64,000 nucleotides of DNA, taken from Cupriavidus neocaledonicus. GTDB taxonomy: Bacteria; Pseudomonadota; Gammaproteobacteria; Burkholderiales; Burkholderiaceae. A program made the position numbers and the translations under genes. Location: positions 434,001 through 498,000 of the forward strand of contig NZ_AQUR01000106.1 of assembly GCF_000372525.1 (NCBI RefSeq), written 5' to 3'. Under the pieces are notes generated by a model. That model was given only the letters and a program-made list of their open reading frames with translations. It had not been told where the DNA came from and searched no databases. This document shows positions 10,357 to 64,000 of the stretch, piece after piece. How positions within the stretch are numbered: position 1 is the first letter of the stretch; every line of letters begins with the position of its first letter.

Positions 10357-11607
10357 GTGAACCTCCCACTCAACGGCATCAAGATCATCGACTTCACGCA
10401 CGTCCAGGCGGGGCCGGCCTGCACCCAGTTGCTGGCATGGTTCGGCGCCGACGTGATCAAGGTCGAGCGCCCGGGTTCCGGCGACGTGACGCGCACCCAG
10501 CTGCGCGACATCCCGGATGTCGACGCGCTGTACTTCACCATGCTCAACAGCAACAAGCGTTCGCTCACGCTGGACACGAAGAAGCCGGAAGGCAAGAAGA
10601 TCCTGGAGCAGCTGATCCGCGAGTCGGACGTGCTGGTCGAGAACTTCGGCCCGGGCGCGCTGGACCGCATGGGCTTTTCGTGGGAGCGTATCAACGAGCT
10701 GAACCCGAAGATGATCGTGGCTTCGGTCAAGGGCTTCAGCGACGGCCATCACTATGAAGACCTGAAGGTCTACGAGAACGTGGCGCAATGCGCCGGCGGC
10801 GCGGCCTCGACCACCGGCTTCTGGGACGGCCCGCCCACGGTGTCCGCGGCGGCGCTGGGCGATTCCAACACTGGCATGCACCTGGCGATCGGCATCCTGA
10901 CCGCGCTGATCGGCCGCGACAAGACCGGCAAGGGCCAGAAGGTCGCGGTGTCGATGCAGGATGCGGTGCTGAACCTGTGCCGGGTCAAGCTGCGCGACCA
11001 GCAGCGCCTGGACCGCCTGGGCTACCTGGAAGAGTACCCGCAGTATCCGCATGGCACCTTCAGCGACGTGGTGCCGCGCGGCGGCAACGCGGGCGGCGGC
11101 GGCCAGCCGGGCTGGGTGCTGAAGTGCAAGGGCTGGGAGACCGACCCCAACGCCTATATCTACTTCACCATCCAGGGCCATGCCTGGGAGCCGATCTGCA
11201 AGGCGCTGGGCAAGCCGGAATGGATCGACGATCCCAACTACGCCACTGCCAAGGCGCGCCAGCCGCATATCTTCGATATCTTCAACACCATCGAGCAATG
11301 GCTGGCCGACAAGACCAAGTACGAGGCGGTCGACATCCTGCGCAAGTTCGACATCCCGTGCGCGCCGGTGCTGTCGATGAAGGAGATTGCCGCCGATCCG
11401 TCGCTGCGTGCCAGCGGCAGCATCACCGAGGTGCCGCACAAGGAGCGCGGCAGCTACCTGACGGTGGGCAGCCCGATCAAGTTCTCCGACCTGAAGCCGG
11501 AGATTACCGGGTCGCCGCTGCTGGGCGAGCATAGCGAAGAGGTGCTGGCCGGCCTGGGCTACGGTGCGGAAGACATCAAGCGCCTGCGCGAGGCCCAGGT
11601 GATCTGA
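10357..11607 (+). CDS. frc: Formyl-CoA:oxalate CoA-transferase
   Basis: A 416-aa class III CoA-transferase that charges oxalate with CoA from formyl-CoA, feeding Oxc and releasing formate. By eye it follows Oxalobacter Frc almost residue for residue: [34 protein letters not shown], catalytic Asp169 in [10 protein letters not shown], and the [11 protein letters not shown] loop that shields the anhydride. Residue 48 is Gln where Oxalobacter Frc has Trp. The 40-base gap from oxc carries a clear AATAGGAGACG ribosome site. A terminator at 11638 ends the operon. Confidence 0.95.
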
Positions 11608-53330: not shown

Positions 53331-55484
53331 CACCCCTGCCGTTACCCCGCCTTGCGGCTGCGGACCCGGCGCCATGCCGGGTCCGCCCGCGGGCTCCGTC
53401 ACGCCGCGCAGCGGCGGGCGCACCAGGCTGGCGTGCCACGCCTGCTGGATCACCCGGGCAATCTGGTTGAACGCTTCCTTGGAAATCACCGCTTCCTCGC
53501 GCATCGCTTCCAGCGACAGCCGGCCCTTGCGCAACGCAAACAGCATCAGCAGGCGCCGCTCCAGCGCCACGGTATAGGCACCGAACTTGGCGCGCATGTC
53601 CGCCAGGCCCTCGGCGGCCGCGCGCGAGCGGTCTTCCAGCACGCCGTCGAGCACGGTCGCCATGCGCGCGCCGAACACCGGGGTCAGCATCGAGCGGTTG
53701 TAGCGGCGCAGCCGGTCCAGCACGGTCTGGCGGCAGATCAGCAGTTCGAAGCGGTCGGCCAGCGCGCGCGCCAGCGGGCGGTCGATGCCCAGCCGGCGAT
53801 GCAGCAACAGCGCCACCTTGAAGCCCAGGTGATAGTCCAGGATATGCCGCGCGGCGCGGTTGTAGCCGATGCGGCCCTGTTCGCGCGCCGCGTCGATCAT
53901 CTGCGCGGTGTTGCGCATCATCGCGTCGAGGTTGGCCACCGAGATCACGCCGTCGCCGTATTCCGGAATCAGCTCGCGCTCGCGCGTGGCCAGCGTAACC
54001 AGGCCGATGCTGAGGCGGTCGCGCTCGGACAGGGCGGTGTCGAAGTCGAATTCCGCCGAGCCCAGCTCGATGCCGTGCCGGTACTTCTGCGCCGCCTCGC
54101 GCGCGATTGACGGAGGCAGGTCGAACGAATCGGCCACGCGCGCCATCATTGCCTCGACTTCCTCGGTGGAGAGGCGGATCGCCTGCAACTGCAGCGCGCG
54201 CTCCTGCGGCGAAAGCTGGTCCAGGCCGAGCCGGTGGATCAGCGCGCGCAGCGTGGTGCCGTTGAGCAGCAGGCTGACCAGCACGAAGCCGGTCGCGAGG
54301 ATGGCGACAAAATGCCGCGTTTCATAGGGCAGGTTGCTGTTCTCGGCGATACCCAGCGCCAGCACCAGGGTCACCGCGCCGCGCAGCCCGCCCCAGGCGA
54401 TGGCGAGCTTGAAGGCACCGTCGATCGGCGAGCTCAGCCGCAGCCACGACAGCAGCGGCAGCAGCCCGAACAGCGTCACCAGGCGCGCCGCCAGCGCCGC
54501 GAGCACCAGCGCCAGCAGCAGCCAGCCATGATGCCCGGTCACGCCCGCCAGCATCGACGGCACGCGCACCGCGGCGAGCAGGAACACCACCGCGCCGGCA
54601 ATCCCGGCGAACTGCTCCCACATCATGCGCAGGTGGCGCCAGTTGGGCGGCGCCAGCCGCGTGGGGCCCAGCGCGCTGACCATCAGGCCGGCGCACACCA
54701 CCGCGACCACGCCCGACACGCCCAGCAGTTGCTCGGCCAGCAGGTAGAGCGGGTAGGGCAGCGCCAGGGTCAGCGCGCTTTCCGCCATGGCCAGGCCGGC
54801 CAGCCGCGGCAGCAGGTCGGACACCAGCCGCCCGGCCAGCGCGCCGCACAGCACCCCGCCGACAAAGGCCCAGGCCAGCTCGCGCAGGCCCGCCGCCAGC
54901 GTCGCCTGCGCGCCGTGCCCGGTCAGCATCGCCACCAGCACGCCGACGATGGCGATGGCGGCGGCATCGTTGAGCAGGCTTTCGCCTTCCACCAGCCGGA
55001 TCAGCCGCGCCGGCGCGCCCACGTCGCGGAAGATCGCGATCACCGCGGCCGGGTCGGTGGTGGCCACCACCGCGCCCAGCAGCAGGCACACCGCCAGCGG
55101 CATGCCGCTGGCCGCCGCGGTGGCCACGCCGATGACACCGGTGGCCACCACCACGGCGACGACGGCCAGCAGCAGGACCGGCGCCGCGTCCGGCAGCATG
55201 CCGCGCACGTCGGCGGTCAGCGCGGCGTGGAACAGCAGCGGCGGCAGGAAGATCCACAGGTAGGCCTCGGGCGGCAAGGCCGGGTCGATCAGCGGATGCA
55301 GGAAGTGCCGGGCAAAGTCGGGGTGGGCGGCGTCGATCGCCACATAGCCCGCGCCGATGGCAATGCCGATGGCCGACAGCAGCGTCGATTCCGGCAGCAC
55401 CAGCCGTGCCGCGGCCACCTGCACCACGGCGACGATGGCCAGCAGCGCGCCGGCCAGGATCAGGATATCGACGATGATGCTCAT
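53172..55484 (-). CDS. Na+/H+ antiporter, CPA1 family
   Basis: 770-aa frame from ATG 55484. Residues ~1-410 hold about 12 membrane helices of the CPA1 fold with the ion-site signature VVATTDPAAVIAIFRDVG and EGESLLNDAAAIA. A long cytoplasmic helical region follows (~430-700). The last ~60 residues (GGPGMAPGPQPQGG and a charged Asp/Arg/Gln tail) look non-native and run antisense through the 53160 gene and a hairpin at 53360-53386, so the true stop may have been lost. Starts as ATGA overlap with the LysR gene upstream. Likely exports Na+ in exchange for protons. Confidence 0.82.
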   Translation of the reverse strand: MSIIVDILILAGALLAIVAVVQVAAARLVLPESTLLSAIGIAIGAGYVAIDAAHPDFARHFLHPLIDPALPPEAYLWIFLPPLLFHAALTADVRGMLPDAAPVLLLAVVAVVVATGVIGVATAAASGMPLAVCLLLGAVVATTDPAAVIAIFRDVGAPARLIRLVEGESLLNDAAAIAIVGVLVAMLTGHGAQATLAAGLRELAWAFVGGVLCGALAGRLVSDLLPRLAGLAMAESALTLALPYPLYLLAEQLLGVSGVVAVVCAGLMVSALGPTRLAPPNWRHLRMMWEQFAGIAGAVVFLLAAVRVPSMLAGVTGHHGWLLLALVLAALAARLVTLFGLLPLLSWLRLSSPIDGAFKLAIAWGGLRGAVTLVLALGIAENSNLPYETRHFVAILATGFVLVSLLLNGTTLRALIHRLGLDQLSPQERALQLQAIRLSTEEVEAMMARVADSFDLPPSIAREAAQKYRHGIELGSAEFDFDTALSERDRLSIGLVTLATRERELIPEYGDGVISVANLDAMMRNTAQMIDAAREQGRIGYNRAARHILDYHLGFKVALLLHRRLGIDRPLARALADRFELLICRQTVLDRLRRYNRSMLTPVFGARMATVLDGVLEDRSRAAAEGLADMRAKFGAYTVALERRLLMLFALRKGRLSLEAMREEAVISKEAFNQIARVIQQAWHASLVRPPLRGVTEPAGGPGMAPGPQPQGGVTAGVSGRVFGAGTRDGRHDADAEHDQAGNADIDRRQPGRRQSPGNAAHQDQQADDI

Positions 55485-56455
55485 GCGCCGGCCTCCGGGG
55501 CCTCCGGGGCCTCCGGGGCCTCCGGGGCCGCTGCGGGCACCGCAGCCGGCAGCGGCGGGCTGGCCAGCCGCGCGCGCACGGCCGCCGCCAGTTCGGCCGC
55601 CGCCGGCGACAGGCTGCGGTTGCGCGCGGTGACCAGCCCGATCGAGCGCTCGGTTACCGGCGCGGTCAGCAGCCGCTCGACAATGCCGGGCTGGCGCACC
55701 GTGCCGGCGGCGATCTCGGGCAGCGCGGCGACGCCGAAGCCGCATTCGACCATGGCCGCGATGGTGGCCAGGCGTTCGGCCTCGAACACCGGCTGGAAGC
55801 GGATGCGGTTCTGCAGGAAGGCCCATTCCGCGTACTGGCGCACGCTGCTGGGATGGGTCATCGACACATGCGGCGCGGCGGCGGTGTCGGCCCAGCGCAG
55901 CGGTCCGGGGCTGCGCGCCAGCGCATGCGCAGACGGGATCAGCAGCACGAAGCGGTCCGACAGCAGCGGCTCGTACTGCAGGTCGGCCTGTTGCGGGTTG
56001 GCGGCGGTCAGCGCGAAATCCACCTCGCCGGCGCGGACCAGGTCGAAAGCCGGCCCGGACAGGGTGTCGAACACCTTCAGCGCCACTTCCGGGCGGGCCT
56101 GGTGGTAGGCCATCAGCACCCGCGGCAGCACCCGCGCCGCCAGGGAGGGCAGCGCGGCCACCGCGACCTGGCCGCGCTCGGCGCTGGCGATGCCGGTCAC
56201 GGCGTCGATGGCGCCGCGGAACGCCGCCTGCAGCAGCGCGGCCTGCTGCATGAAGACCTGGCCCGCCGCGGTCAGGCGCACGGTGCGGGTGGTGCGGTCG
56301 AACAGGCGCACGCCCAGCGCTTCCTCGATGCGCAGGATCTGGGTGGACAGGGCGGATTGCGACAGGTGCAGCTGGCTGGCGGCCTGGCGGAAGTTCAGCG
56401 TGCGGCCCAGCACCAGCGTGGTTTCGATGTCGCGCATCGACAGGTTGATGTTCAT
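55481..56455 (-). CDS. LysR-family transcriptional regulator
   Basis: 324 aa. Winged helix at ~8-65 (DIETTLVLGRTLNFRQAASQLHLSQSALSTQILRIEEALG), effector domain ~95-295 (VALKVFDTLSGPAFDLVRAGEVDFALTA). The C terminus ends in an Ala-Pro-Glu repeat. It is divergent from the hydroxyacyl-CoA dehydrogenase/BKACE operon with 135 bases between, the classic LysR layout, so that operon is the likely target. It is also coupled by an ATGA overlap to the antiporter gene on its own strand. Confidence 0.85.
   Translation of the reverse strand: MNINLSMRDIETTLVLGRTLNFRQAASQLHLSQSALSTQILRIEEALGVRLFDRTTRTVRLTAAGQVFMQQAALLQAAFRGAIDAVTGIASAERGQVAVAALPSLAARVLPRVLMAYHQARPEVALKVFDTLSGPAFDLVRAGEVDFALTAANPQQADLQYEPLLSDRFVLLIPSAHALARSPGPLRWADTAAAPHVSMTHPSSVRQYAEWAFLQNRIRFQPVFEAERLATIAAMVECGFGVAALPEIAAGTVRQPGIVERLLTAPVTERSIGLVTARNRSLSPAAAELAAAVRARLASPPLPAAVPAAAPEAPEAPEAPEAGA
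55490..55529 (-). repeat. 9-base tandem repeat at the end of the LysR gene
   Basis: About 4.4 copies of GGCCTCCGG, encoding repeated Ala-Pro-Glu near the C terminus of the LysR protein. Being a multiple of three, copy-number change would not alter the frame. Confidence 0.85.
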
Positions 56456-58504: not shown

Positions 58505-58780
58505 TCAGGCGCCGTCGCTGAAGCTGTCGCGCGGGCTGTTGGGGTTGTGGGCACCGTCGCCGAACGGATTGCGCGCGCCGGTCGCGGTGTGCTCGCCGTC
58601 GGTAAAGCTGCTGCGGGTGCCGGTGGCGGCGTTGGCACCGTCGGTGAACGGGCTGCGCGTGCTGGTCACGCTGCGCGCGCCATCGCTGAACGGATCGACG
58701 CTGCGTGGCGCGGCTTGGGCGGCGCCGGCAACGCCGGCAATAAGAGCGGTGGCGACAAAGACTTGCCTGAGTGCATGCAT
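58505..58780 (-). CDS. Small secreted protein with 14-residue repeats
   Basis: 91 aa from ATG 58780. A signal peptide (HALRQVFVATALIAGVAGAA, cut after AQA at residue 23) is followed, from residue 29, by four full 14-residue units and one partial: DPFSDGARSVTSTR, SPFTDGANAATGTR, SSFTDGEHTATGAR, NPFGDGAHNPNSPR and DSFSDGA. The invariant core is [P/S]F[S/T/G]DG. Such Asp-Gly turns could bind divalent metal or form an extended repeat. I know no named family with this unit. Confidence 0.75.
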   Translation of the reverse strand: MHALRQVFVATALIAGVAGAAQAAPRSVDPFSDGARSVTSTRSPFTDGANAATGTRSSFTDGEHTATGARNPFGDGAHNPNSPRDSFSDGA

Positions 58781-59031
58781 GGATCGCTTCTCCGTGAGGT
58801 TGCCGGTCCGGAATGGGCGGCGATGTGGCAAGTCTAGGTGTCGGCCCCCCACACGAGCATGACCGCCACATGACATTGCCGTCATCCGGCGGGCATTAGT
58901 CGGCACCGCCGGCACGCCGCAGAAGCTGCCGCCGGTCAAAGGCTGTAGAATCATGGCTGTCCGACCGGCCTGTGGTTCCATCGCCGGTTTTTCATTGCCC
59001 GCGGAAATGCAGCGGGCCTCTCACAAGAGTC

Positions 59032-59402: not shown

Positions 59403-59846
59403 TCAGCAGTGCGGGGGCAGCAGCCGTAGCACCGGCAGCATCGGCAGGATGCCGGTGAATGCCGCCGGCGTGGCCATGGGCGCCACATGCGCGCGGTGCA
59501 CGAACACCTCGGCAGGCAGTTCGCGCAGCACGTTGGCAGCCGCGGCAGGCTGCGGGGCGGTGCCGGCGGCAGTGTCGCGCGGGGCATCCGGCTCGCCCAG
59601 CTGCAACGGCTCGCCGTCGCCGGCGGGCTCGGCCATCACGCGCACCGCGCTGGCGCCGCAATCCAGGCCGGCGGCGCCGTCCAGCGACGCTTCCGCTGCC
59701 AGCTTGACCGCGACATGGCGGTCCGGCAGCGACAGGCCAGCCGCATGCACCGCGCCGCCCATCCGGTTGTCCGCCGCCGCGCTGCCCGCAGCGGACAGCG
59801 CAAGCAGGGCAAGAGACAGCAACCAGGAGCTAGGCAGGCGTTTCAT
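59403..59846 (-). CDS. Secreted hypothetical protein
   Basis: 147 aa from ATG 59846. Signal peptide MKRLPSSWLLSLALLALSAA (cleavage after about residue 25). The mature part is Ala-rich with scattered His, Met and Cys (MGGAVHAAGLSLPDRHVAVK, FVHRAHVAPMATPAAF) and ends LPPHC. No known family. It is divergent from the metal-type two-component system with 209 bases between, so metal-dependent expression is possible but unproven. Confidence 0.6.
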   Translation of the reverse strand: MKRLPSSWLLSLALLALSAAGSAAADNRMGGAVHAAGLSLPDRHVAVKLAAEASLDGAAGLDCGASAVRVMAEPAGDGEPLQLGEPDAPRDTAAGTAPQPAAAANVLRELPAEVFVHRAHVAPMATPAAFTGILPMLPVLRLLPPHC

Positions 59847-60055
59847 CGCAGGGAAAGCGGCAGAATGGGGGACGATGCGCGCGGGCAAGCCGCGCGCGAT
59901 GGCGGTGAGCGCGCATTCTACCGGTGTTTTGCGCGGCCATGCCGTGGCAATGCGTGGGCATGGCGATGACATTTCTGCAATCTTTACCCATTTGCCGCCA
60001 TCCTCGGCTAGCGTTACGCCATGGCGGCACTGGGCCGCCCGAAAGTGACTGAATC

Positions 60056-60745
60056 ATGCGTATCCTGATTGTCGAGGACGAACCCAAGGCAGGCGACTAC
60101 CTGCACAAGGGGCTGACCGAATCCGGCTTCGTGGTGGACCTGGCGCGCGACGGCGCGGACGGCCTGGCCCACGCGCGCGAGCATCCTTATGACCTGATCG
60201 TGCTGGACGTGATGCTGCCCGGCCTGGACGGGTGGGAGGTACTGCGCGAACTGCGCCGCGAGCGCGACACGCCGGTGCTGTTCCTGACCGCGCGCGACGA
60301 GTTGTCGGACCGCCTCAAGGGCCTGGAGCTGGGCGCCGACGACTACATGGTCAAGCCCTTTGCCTTTGCCGAGCTGGTGCTGCGCATCCGCACCATCCTG
60401 CGCCGCGGTCCGCTGCGCGAGAGCGAGTTCATCGAAGTGGCCGACCTGCAGATCGACGCCATCCGCCGCCGCGTGGTGCGCGCCGGCCAGAAGATCGACC
60501 TGACCTCGAAGGAGTTCGCGCTCTTGTACCTGCTGGCGCGCCGGCGCGGCGAGGTGCTGTCGCGCTCGCTGATCGCCTCGCAGGTGTGGGATGTCAATTT
60601 CGACAGCAACACCAATGTAGTCGACGTGTCGATCCGGCGCCTGCGCGCCAAGGTCGACGACCCGTTCCCGCGCAAGCTGATCCATACGCGCCGCGGCATG
60701 GGCTACGTGCTGGACGATGGCGATGAGCGGGTGCAAGACGCATGA
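60056..60745 (+). CDS. Heavy-metal response regulator, CzcR/CopR-like
   Basis: 229-aa OmpR-type regulator. Receiver domain 1-118 with phosphorylation site Asp51 ([15 protein letters not shown]), Thr in FLTARDE and Lys in YMVKPFAF. Winged-helix output domain ~130-225 ([59 protein letters not shown]). It overlaps the kinase gene as ATGA. Proteins of this branch control cation efflux genes. Confidence 0.9.
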
Positions 60746-62199
60746 TGCGGCTGCCGTCTTCGCTTACCACGCGGCTGGCGCTGGCCTACGGGCTCGCCAC
60801 CGCGGCGATCCTGGCCAGCGTGGCGGCGTACCTGTCGAGCGCGCTGTCGGCCCAGCTCGAAGGGCGCGATGAAAGCGAGCTGGTGGGCGAGGTGCTGCTG
60901 GTGCGGCACCTGCTGCGCGAAGTACGCAGCGAGGCCGAGATCCGTGCCGATACCCACCGCTTTGCCGATATCGCGATGGGCCACGAGGGCCTGATCCTGG
61001 TGGTGCGCACGCGCCAGGGCGAGCCGCTGGTGACGCTGAACCCGCGCAACGAGACCGTGCCGCCGCTGCGCGTGCTGCCGGCCACCACGCAGCCCGAGAA
61101 AAGCATGCTGCAGACCTGGCGGCCCAAGAACGGCGTGCCCTCGCGCGGCATTGCCGCGCTCGGCCAGCTGGGCGACTCGGACAAGGCCGTGGAGATCGTG
61201 GTGCTGCGCGATGCCGGCTATCGCGTGGCGCTGATCCGCGAATATCGCCACCAGCTGCTGTGGGCCACGCTGTGCGGCGCCGCGGTGGCGGCCGGACTGG
61301 GCTTTGCGCTGGCGCGGCGCGCGCTGCGGCCGCTGCGGCGCATGGCCGCCGATGCCGCCGCGGTGACCACCAGCCGCCTGGCCACGCGCCTGGACGTGGG
61401 CAGCGCGCCGGCGGAGCTGCGCGAGCTGGCGGCCGCGCTCAACGACATGCTGGCGCGGCTGCAGGACAGCTTCTCGCGGCTGTCCGAGTTTTCCGCCGAC
61501 CTGGCTCATGATTTCCGCACGCCGATCAGCAACCTGATCGGCCAGACCCAGGTCACGCTGGCGCAGAGCCGCACGACCGCCGAGTATGAGGCGCTGCTCG
61601 AGTCCAACCTGGAGGAGTACGAGCGCCTGGCGCGCATGATCGAGAACATGCTGTTCCTGGCGCGCGCCGACCATGCGCAGGTGGCGCTGGACGTGCGTAC
61701 GCTGGACGCGCGCGAAGAACTCGACAAGATGGCCGAGTACTTCGAAGCCGTGGCGGCGGACCGCGAGGTCATGCTGACGGTTTCCGGCTCGGCCCCGGTT
61801 GAGGCCGACCAGACGCTGCTGCGGCGCGCGGTGACCAACCTGCTCGACAACGCGCTGCGCCATGCGCCGGCGGGCAGCACGGTGCGGGTCGACGTTGCGC
61901 GCGCCCCGACCGCCACGGGCAGCGGCACGGGCACCAGCATCCGCGTCAGCAACCCGGGGCCGGCGATCCCGCCGGAGACGCTGCCGCATATCTTCGGCCG
62001 CTTCTACCGCGCCGATCCGTCGCGGCGCAACTCGGCGGCATCGACCGGGCTGGGCCTGGCCATCGTCGACACCATCATGCGGCTGCACGGCGGCAGCGTG
62101 ACGGTGCGCAGCGTCGACGGCCTGACCGTGTTCACGCTACAGTTCCCGGCCGAGCCGGTGCCGCTGCCGTTGCCTTCCGCACCCGCCGCCGTATCCTGA
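60742..62199 (+). CDS. Heavy-metal sensor histidine kinase, CzcS/CusS-like
   Basis: 485 aa. Helix 1 ([22 protein letters not shown]), a ~140-residue periplasmic sensor, helix 2 ([20 protein letters not shown]), HAMP domain, then the dimerisation box [15 protein letters not shown] with phospho-accepting His256, N box [11 protein letters not shown] and G boxes ([25 protein letters not shown]). Layout is that of the CzcS/CopS family. The sensed metal is likely Cu, Zn, Cd or similar; the periplasmic domain has few His residues. Confidence 0.9.
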
Positions 62200-62315
62200 G
62201 GCCGCCCTTGCACTCGCCCCGCGCGCGCGGATAATGGCGCGCGTGCCGGCCGCCGCCGCTGCGGAGCGTCCGGCAGCCCATGTCATGCAACCCGATGGAC
62301 AACCAGGAGAGCAAC

Positions 62316-62726
62316 ATGCAGGTGCAACCCTATCTGGATTTCGGCGGCCGCTTCGACGAGGCGGTGGCCTTTTACGGCAAGGTGCTGGGTGCGCAGGTCA
62401 CGTTCGCGATGCGCTATAGAGAAGCGCCGCAGGACCAGGGCATGGCGGTGCCCGACGACTGGAAAGACAAGGTGATGCACGCCAATCTGCAGATCGGCGA
62501 GAACCAGGTGATGGCCTCCGACGGCCGTCCCGGCGAGCGCCCGGCGTTCAGCGGCTTCAGCCTGTCGGTGGGCGGGGTCGGCCGCGACGAAGGCCGGCGC
62601 ATCTTCGAGGGCCTGAGCGAAGGCGGCCAGGTGGTGGTGCCGTACCAGAAGACTTTCTGGGCCGAAGGCTTCGGCATGCTGGTGGACCGCTTCGGCATGT
62701 CGTGGATGGTCAACTGCGAGCACTAG
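62316..62726 (+). CDS. VOC/glyoxalase-fold protein, PhnB-like
   Basis: 136 aa from ATG 62316 (CAGGAGAGCAAC upstream; in-frame ATGs at 62280 and 62295 lack an RBS). Whole protein is a PhnB/YjdN-type VOC domain: QPYLDFGGRFDEAVAFYGKVLGAQVTF, HANLQIGENQVMASDGRPGER, and FWAEGFGMLVDRFGMSWMVNCE. No clear metal-ligand triad. Function unknown; such proteins are sometimes resistance or stress factors. Confidence 0.82.
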   Translation: MQVQPYLDFGGRFDEAVAFYGKVLGAQVTFAMRYREAPQDQGMAVPDDWKDKVMHANLQIGENQVMASDGRPGERPAFSGFSLSVGGVGRDEGRRIFEGLSEGGQVVVPYQKTFWAEGFGMLVDRFGMSWMVNCEH

Positions 62727-62831: not shown

Positions 62832-64000
62832 ATGGCTCGCACGTCACCTGAAGACGCCCTTCCGCACGATCACGCCGTCCAGCACGATGGGGCGCATGGC
62901 GCCTGCCATGCGCATGATCACGATCACCACGGCCACGCTCACGACCACGACCACGCTCACGACCATACACCGGCGCCGGCCGCGTGTTGCGGCGGCGGGT
63001 GCGCGTCGACCGTCGCGCTGATGCCGCCGGCACCGGTCGCGGTACCGGCCGGCGCCCGCACCGCTACCTGGCGCATCGACGCCATGGATTGCCCGACCGA
63101 GGAAACGCTGATCCGCAACAAGCTGGGCGGCATGGCCGGCATCGCCGCGCTCGAATTCAACCTGATCCAGCGGGTGCTGACGGTGCACCACACGCTGCCG
63201 TCGGCGGAGCCGGTGGCCCGCGCCATCGAAAGCCTGGGCATGCGGCCGGTGCCGCTCAGCGCCGCGGCCGCGCAGCAAGTGCTGCCCGAAACCGCAGCGC
63301 GCAAGCCGTGGTGGCCACTGGCGCTGGCCGGTGTCGCCGCGCTGGGGGCCGAGGCCACGGAGTGGCTGGGCCTGGGTCTGCCGTGGCTGCCGGCGGTGCT
63401 GGCAGTCGCCGCGGTCGCGCTGGGCGGGCTTACTACCTACCGCAAGGGCTGGATCGCGCTGCGCAACGGCAACCTGAACATCAACGCGCTGATGAGCATC
63501 GCCGTGACTGGCGCGCTGTTGCTGCGCCAGTGGCCGGAAGCGGCGATGGTCATGGTGCTGTTCGCGCTGGCCGAGCGCATCGAGGCGGCGTCGCTGGACC
63601 GCGCCCGCCATGCCATCCGCGGCCTGATGGCGATGGCGCCGGAGCTTGCCACGGTGCGCCGCGCCGATGGCAGCTGGGACACCGTGCCGGCCGCCGGCGT
63701 GGCCGTCGGCACGCTGGTGCGGCTGCGCCCGGGCGAGCGCGTGGCGCTCGACGGCAAGGTCGTGCGCGGGCAGTCGGCGCTGGACCAGGCGCCCATCACC
63801 GGCGAAAGCGTGCCGGTCGACAAGGCCGAAGGCGATGCCCTCTACGCCGGCTCGATCAACCAGTCCGGCGAACTCGAATACACCGTGACCGCGCCCGCCA
63901 GCGACTCGACGCTGGCGCGCATCATCCACGCGGTGGAGGCCGCGCAGGGCAGCCGCGCACCCACGCAGCGCTTTGTCGACCAGTTCGCGCGCATCTACAC
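62832..64000 (+). CDS. cadA: Zn/Cd/Pb-translocating P-type ATPase (partial)
   Basis: First 389 residues of a P1B-type metal ATPase; the gene runs off the right end before the phosphorylation site. The start is ATG 62832, whose His-rich leader is in frame: about 15 His between residues 12 and 45, then the cysteine cluster AACCGGGCAS. Next comes an HMA domain with the Zn/Cd-type site RIDAMDCPTEE in place of the copper CxxC motif. Membrane helices start near 155, and the actuator domain has DQAPITGESVPVDKAEGD. Expected to export Zn, Cd or Pb from the cytoplasm. The MerR-type promoter directly upstream fits induction by these metals. Confidence 0.9.
   Translation, partial: MARTSPEDALPHDHAVQHDGAHGACHAHDHDHHGHAHDHDHAHDHTPAPAACCGGGCASTVALMPPAPVAVPAGARTATWRIDAMDCPTEETLIRNKLGGMAGIAALEFNLIQRVLTVHHTLPSAEPVARAIESLGMRPVPLSAAAAQQVLPETAARKPWWPLALAGVAALGAEATEWLGLGLPWLPAVLAVAAVALGGLTTYRKGWIALRNGNLNINALMSIAVTGALLLRQWPEAAMVMVLFALAERIEAASLDRARHAIRGLMAMAPELATVRRADGSWDTVPAAGVAVGTLVRLRPGERVALDGKVVRGQSALDQAPITGESVPVDKAEGDALYAGSINQSGELEYTVTAPASDSTLARIIHAVEAAQGSRAPTQRFVDQFARIY

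Follow-up and report, generated by a model that had tools for sequence, protein, structure and literature searches.

A CopQ-like protein with five regular F-x-D-G motifs in a czcL-czcRS locus of Cupriavidus neocaledonicus, and its possible role in docking

The CopQ-like proteins were described in 2010 as a family found only in Cupriavidus and Ralstonia, whose members carry a signal peptide and a repeated RDXXTDG motif and are metal-induced (PMC2864759; this and the other papers are cited for those portions of their text that were available). The motif is repeated 3 to 4 times in CzcJ, MmrQ and CopQ, whereas the products of mmmQ, mmtQ and mmsQ are described as similar in domains and spacers, with highly metal-induced genes; the inducers given for family members are Cd, Cu, Ni, Zn, Pb or Hg, and mmtQ and mmsQ are unlinked to the metal-resistance loci of C. 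metallidurans CH34 (PMC2864759). That strain has 21 copQ homologues, and the family has been called poorly characterised (PMC7563307). The mmmQ gene lies on the CH34 chromid in the order zntA czcICBA ubiG czcSRL / hns mmmQ (PMC2864759). Cluster C of C. neocaledonicus STM 6070 reads czcJ2-hns-czcLRS-ubiGI-zntA, and MmmQ is called a small stress-responsive protein in the same paper (PMC7060636). In C. metallidurans NA4, AgrR binds prsQ2, czcL-czcR2 and copA2-copR2, and CzcR2 is a close homologue of AgrR (PMC7380067). In the silver-resistant NA4S, prsQ2 is upregulated 507-fold, and AgrR, PrsQ1 and PrsQ2 deletion derivatives lose silver resistance (a 2019 study as reported in PMC7380067). The available portions of PMC6266692, PMC8963506, PMC6357080, PMC7912956 and PMC13192273 hold nothing on the CopQ-like family itself.

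We analysed a stretch of 64,000 nucleotides from C. neocaledonicus (the window), in which a sequence-only reading had drawn attention to a small exported repeat protein. The features of its locus are as follows.

58505..58780, minus strand: CopQ-like protein of 91 aa, assigned as the mmmQ/czcJ2 orthologue (translation; full-length orthologues 75-95% identical; CH34 mmmQ synteny)
58709..58780, minus strand: predicted signal peptide spanning roughly residues 1-24 (assigned by eye from the sequence; sole helix of the AlphaFold2 model)
58508..58690, minus strand: repeat region with five F-x-D-G motifs, residues 31-91, period 14
58870..58885, no strand assigned: AgrR-type operator ATGACATTGCCGTCAT, which differs from ATKACANNNNTGTMAT by one mismatch and lies 105 to 90 bp ahead of the start codon
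59032..59337, plus strand: H-NS-like protein, hns of the published cluster (Pfam PF00816, E 1e-6, 28.8 bits against a cut-off of 25.6; synteny)
59403..59846, minus strand: CzcL-like hypothetical protein (position; 31-38% identity to the same-place gene in CH34 and four other distant loci)
59966..59981, no strand assigned: second AgrR-type operator, between czcL and czcR, one mismatch
60056..60745, plus strand: heavy-metal response regulator, CzcR2-like (TIGR01387, 342.7 bits, cut-off 279.2)
60742..62199, plus strand: heavy-metal sensor kinase, CzcS2-like (TIGR01386, 489.6 bits, cut-off 292.55)
62280..62726, plus strand: gene in the ubiG place of the published cluster, 148 aa (position)
62832..64000, plus strand: zntA-like gene for a P-type ATPase whose N-terminus is His-rich; the window ends within the gene, and the contig version has 790 aa (named after cluster C of PMC7060636)

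The minus-strand ORF 58505-58780 translates into 91 residues, MHALRQVFVATALIAGVAGAAQAAPRSVDPFSDGA...PRDSFSDGA, with F.DG at residues 31, 45, 59, 73 and 87, that is, at four spacings of exactly 14. Four full 14-residue steps are followed by an incomplete final copy running up to the stop; the motif Phe is preceded by P or S and followed by S, T or G. The coordinates, the export and the unit count given by the sequence-only reading are thus borne out by the translation. A chance repeat was ruled out, as 200,000 shuffles of residues 25-91 never yielded five F.DG copies (maximum 3). Tandem Repeats Finder picks up part of the region (58570-58685, period 42, 2.8 copies, score 113). The mature chain has 67 residues, a pI of 5.4 and a net charge of about -1.9; it contains 7 Asp and 2 His, and Cys, Met, Trp, Tyr and Lys are all absent.

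That reading knew of no family built from such a unit. Scanned against Pfam and NCBIfam, the protein indeed gave no match up to E 1, and a literature text search for the peptide DPFTDGA returned no paper, since the motif is written RDXXTDG in print. The 58505-58780 protein is nevertheless a member of the CopQ-like family already described (CopQ, CzcJ, MmrQ, MmmQ, MmtQ, MmsQ; PMC2864759), and both family and locus have been published; what is added here is a selection pattern, a conserved operator, the loss of units among orthologues and a sharper functional hypothesis. The literal RDXXTDG occurs in no exact copy in the protein, whose motifs take the form R[DSN]xF[TSG]DG four times and VDPFSDG once. 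However, just 2 exact copies are found in MmmQ of CH34, itself a published member. The family is thus not bounded by the literal motif, and we filed the protein by the wider definition of similar domains and spacers published for MmmQ, MmtQ and MmsQ. BLASTP gave E 7e-16 against CH34 MmmQ and 4e-16 against CopQ, and after removal of the signal peptides neither alignment score was reached in 2000 shuffles; these mature-region alignments show the similar domains and spacers. The N-terminal signal sequence typical of the family is recognisable by eye and as a predicted helix at residues 2-21.

With MmmQ (Rmet_4461, C. metallidurans CH34) the protein shares the signal peptide, 51% identity over 61 residues, an AgrR-type operator upstream and the locus order with hns, czcL and czcRS. 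In contrast, MmmQ has irregular repeat spacing where the window protein has five regular 14-residue units, and in the CH34 locus extra sequence is inserted between hns and czcL and zntA belongs to another cluster. CopQ (Rmet_6121, pMOL30) likewise has a signal peptide, four RD[PT][FY][TS]DG repeats and an FSDGA end, but it lies in a copper cluster beside copH and copE, its repeats are 13 residues apart with HSM/HSI in the spacers, and it lacks an AgrR-type operator (3 mismatches at best). The pMOL30 match RMET_RS30565, which adjoins a CzcE-family gene and copE, was identified as copQ by position, from the published order ...copFOLQHE... (PMC2864759).

The gene order in the window is mmmQ(-), hns(+), czcL(-), czcR(+), czcS(+), the ubiG-position gene(+) and the zntA-like gene(+). 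The CzcL-like protein matched nothing in Pfam or NCBIfam, the response regulator and the kinase are 92% and 77% identical to the same-place genes of CH34, and the product of 62280..62726 resembles a VOC/PhnB-type protein. In a search with the window proteins, hns, czcL, czcR and czcS stood beside the mmmQ-like gene in 13 of 16 other loci; four of these 13 (CH34, L074, L076 and L077) have extra DNA between hns and czcL. Among the stretches compared, a set of 13 had been hand-chosen from the loci of the family search, and the identities for one query, BKACE, were left aside. The exceptions were L071, L075 and L032, the last being the paralogue CopQ. In L071 (G020) and L075 (G003) the mmmQ-like gene lies beside the same 3-hydroxyacyl-dehydrogenase-like gene, and the hns-czcL-czcRS block is absent within 16-17 kb.

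From the shared hns-czcL-czcR-czcS neighbourhood, the window gene is by position and sequence the orthologue of mmmQ in CH34 and czcJ2 in STM 6070; for CzcJ2 the comparison rests on the published cluster order (PMC7060636). It is also very probably the orthologue of prsQ2, as judged from locus-tag order, since prsQ2 of NA4 (v1_pm0620) is two locus tags from czcL (v1_pm0618; PMC7380067). As described there, PrsQ2 is CopQ-like, is encoded near czcL and is an AgrR target.

We then examined the operator. The window gene carries upstream, with one mismatch, the published AgrR consensus operator ATKACANNNNTGTMAT, and the site at 59966-59981 corresponds to the czcL-czcR2 region bound by AgrR in NA4 (PMC7380067). 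A third match, with two mismatches, lies at 10862 in the window. Shuffled windows had a mean of 1.28 matches at two mismatches or fewer, with at least three matches in 10 of 100: the operator count in the window is in itself unremarkable, and it is the placement and conservation of the sites that are remarkable. An operator with at most one mismatch lay within 260 bp upstream at 30 of 30 loci (our own and 29 others, all fetched with the window protein and mostly close orthologues, hence not independent) against 7 of 6000 simulated upstream regions, and an exact one at 8 of the 30 against 0 of 6000; it is exact upstream of CH34 mmmQ. Since only 2 of the 9 CopQ-like proteins of the same genome have an operator within one mismatch and CH34 CopQ has none, AgrR-type regulation is not family-wide. 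Genome-wide, 17 operator sites were found against 1 for the reversed pattern. One lies before czcR and another separates a gene that looks copA-like by eye from the sole further response regulator that exceeds the TIGR01387 cut-off; several are beside genes that, by eye, have no evident metal link. Given the close homology of CzcR2 with AgrR, either regulator may use the operator.

The family proved widespread in the genus. Each of the 60 genomes searched in the window's genus yielded a protein match with an E-value of 0.001 or lower. In the genome of the window itself (6.77 Mb, 107 contigs), the DNA pattern for DP[FY][ST]DGA had 26 exact matches against 0 for its reverse, and around them 9 distinct CopQ-like repeat proteins were located. 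A sample of the bacterial family contained the pattern in 80 of 398 genomes, repeatedly in all 59 genomes of the window's genus and all 16 of a second genus (g24), probably Ralstonia; five genomes of 4 further genera had one hit each, which does not exceed the 9 single-hit genomes of the reversed control. An order-level sample of 250 genomes contained 4 with a match: two belong to the window's genus, and the other two have a single hit each. Outside the family 2 of 242 genomes had one hit, against 5 for the control. In a plasmid collection, all records matching three family queries (15/15, 22/22 and 14/14) were Cupriavidus, and none of these matches was named Ralstonia; a contig scan gave at least 4 loci, all Cupriavidus among the matches listed. 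Five longer paralogues of the own genome (L002, L005, L014, L022 and L024) have a recurring AG[LM]DR[STG]GVS[AS]xPA module, and L005, L014, L022 and L024 also have a YGY stretch such as GDKYGYSYR; the CopQ-like literature, in its available portions, mentions neither. The gene table of the CH34 chromid record NC_007974.2 consists of a single feature, so a gene missing there says nothing on annotation.

The orthologues showed which residues of the protein are kept. In 19 full-length orthologues, the signal peptide had a pN/pS of 0.33, the motif Phe, Asp and Gly had 0, and the remainder of residues 30-91 had 0.46; at the 15 motif positions pN was 0 and pS 0.435, meaning that Phe, Asp and Gly are invariant despite silent changes. 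The ORF behaves as a real gene under purifying selection. Identity reaches 95% in L078 and 91% in L079, both from Cupriavidus. Whole 14-residue units are missing from two further orthologues, one unit in the first and two in the second, as is expected for repeated equivalent motifs; in one of this pair, L054, which has four units, Ile replaces Phe in one motif. An AlphaFold2 run on a shallow three-sequence alignment gave a mean pLDDT of 51.6 and a pTM of 0.20, with no secondary structure after the signal helix; the mature chain is, from this model, probably mostly disordered. A rod or folded solenoid was discarded for want of any predicted structure, and the surface-exposed rod suggested from the sequence finds no support in the model. 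A PDB sequence search with the protein gave no match up to E 10.

These data lead us to propose, with somewhat less than even confidence, that the gene encodes a metal-stress-induced, disordered periplasmic CopQ-like protein whose repeats dock on an envelope partner and thereby raise metal tolerance. Metal stress would act in C. neocaledonicus through a heavy-metal response regulator of the OmpR type, either AgrR or the CzcR2 encoded alongside, that would switch on the gene from the upstream operator. The product, exported and probably periplasmic, could then present its five F-x-D-G motifs as equivalent, multivalent docking sites for a folded envelope partner, candidates for which are an efflux component, the periplasmic domain of a sensor kinase or the cell wall; docking would in turn raise metal tolerance. 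Selection as strict on Phe and Gly as on Asp, a chain with no predicted structure and the whole-unit loss favour docking over a metal site, and the mature chain without Cys or Met and with 2 His, together with an Asp two residues before Phe in only 2 of the 5 units, favours it over chelation. Phe is not a metal ligand. Counting against the proposal, CzcJ and CopQ are listed as not found in the CH34 proteome even under metal challenge, in the portion of PMC11647595 available. Also against it are the Ile in place of a motif Phe in L054, the operator being found at just 2 of the 9 CopQ-like proteins located in the genome, and the genome-wide sites that lie by genes without an obvious tie to metals. 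A wider version, to which we attach less confidence still, is that CopQ-like proteins in general are disordered multivalent adaptors and not chelators, F-x-D-G docking on one conserved envelope protein and the paralogues being metal-specific versions. The family, matched in 60 of 60 genomes searched of the genus and tied in print to several metals (PMC2864759 and PMC7380067, as cited above), matches nothing in Pfam or NCBIfam, and the selection pattern gives this small metal-induced protein a testable role: its motif probably serves for docking rather than for binding metal.

The main rival to docking is a possible weak binding of divalent metals by carboxylates. The protein would then be a periplasmic metal sponge in which the repeated Asp, and occasionally His, weakly bind and buffer excess cations, with more repeats giving more capacity. 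Its place in a metal-resistance locus behind the operator, the induction of the family by Cd, Cu, Ni, Zn, Pb or Hg (PMC2864759) and an Asp content of 14% in the repeat regions would all fit; this last figure comes from a 29-region set that favours loci retrieved with the window protein and in which the unit search required [FY]...G, so that those positions are fixed by construction. An EF-hand-like calcium loop reads DxDxDG, with Asp/Asn-type ligands at positions 1, 3 and 5. Two of the five units recall its D-x-x-x-D-G spacing (as D-x-F-x-D-G), but Phe occupies position 3 throughout and only those two have Asp at position 1, so the units do not fit a metal-binding loop of the EF-hand type. The composition noted above (no Cys or Met, 2 His, about -1.9 net charge) and the single invariant Asp per motif, beside an equally invariant Phe and Gly, speak against a sponge, which we consider rather doubtful. 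The earlier suggestion that the protein may bind metal stands as far as metal stress is concerned, a link made strong by locus, operator and published induction, and is weakened for direct binding by the same composition.

Another reading is a regulatory protein, which would contact CzcS2 or AgrS at the periplasmic sensor domain and so tune signalling, a role claimed for the periplasmic CzcE towards CzcS. This would suit a gene adjoining the czcR-czcS pair in 13 of 16 loci, and both cross-talk among CzcRS, CzcR2S2 and AgrRS and a CzcE-CzcS interaction have been reported (PMC10127602, PMC9045368). It appears unlikely: the other 8 CopQ-like proteins of the genome are on 7 contigs, none of which has a response regulator over the heavy-metal family cut-off, mmtQ and mmsQ of CH34 are unlinked to metal-resistance loci (PMC2864759), and L071 and L075 keep the mmmQ-like gene when the czcR-czcS pair is absent within the stretch examined. 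That the ORF is non-functional or spurious, its repeat due to chance, is hardly credible. The missing CzcJ and CopQ in the CH34 proteome (PMC11647595) would agree with it, as would the 7 of 15 plasmid-collection matches without a listed gene, though weakly in view of the single-feature CH34 chromid record; against it stand purifying selection, the conserved operator, synteny and the deletion phenotype reported for prsQ1 and prsQ2 (PMC7380067).

Two further short repeats were seen in the window. An 18-base repeat at 62926-62965 (2.2 copies, 95% match) lies inside the His/Asp-rich N-terminus of the zntA-like ATPase. A nine-base repeat at 55490-55529, in 4.4 perfect copies, is at the 3' end of a gene that by eye encodes a LysR-like regulator (55481-56455, minus strand), where it encodes a PEAPEAPEAPEA tail whose length may vary among strains.
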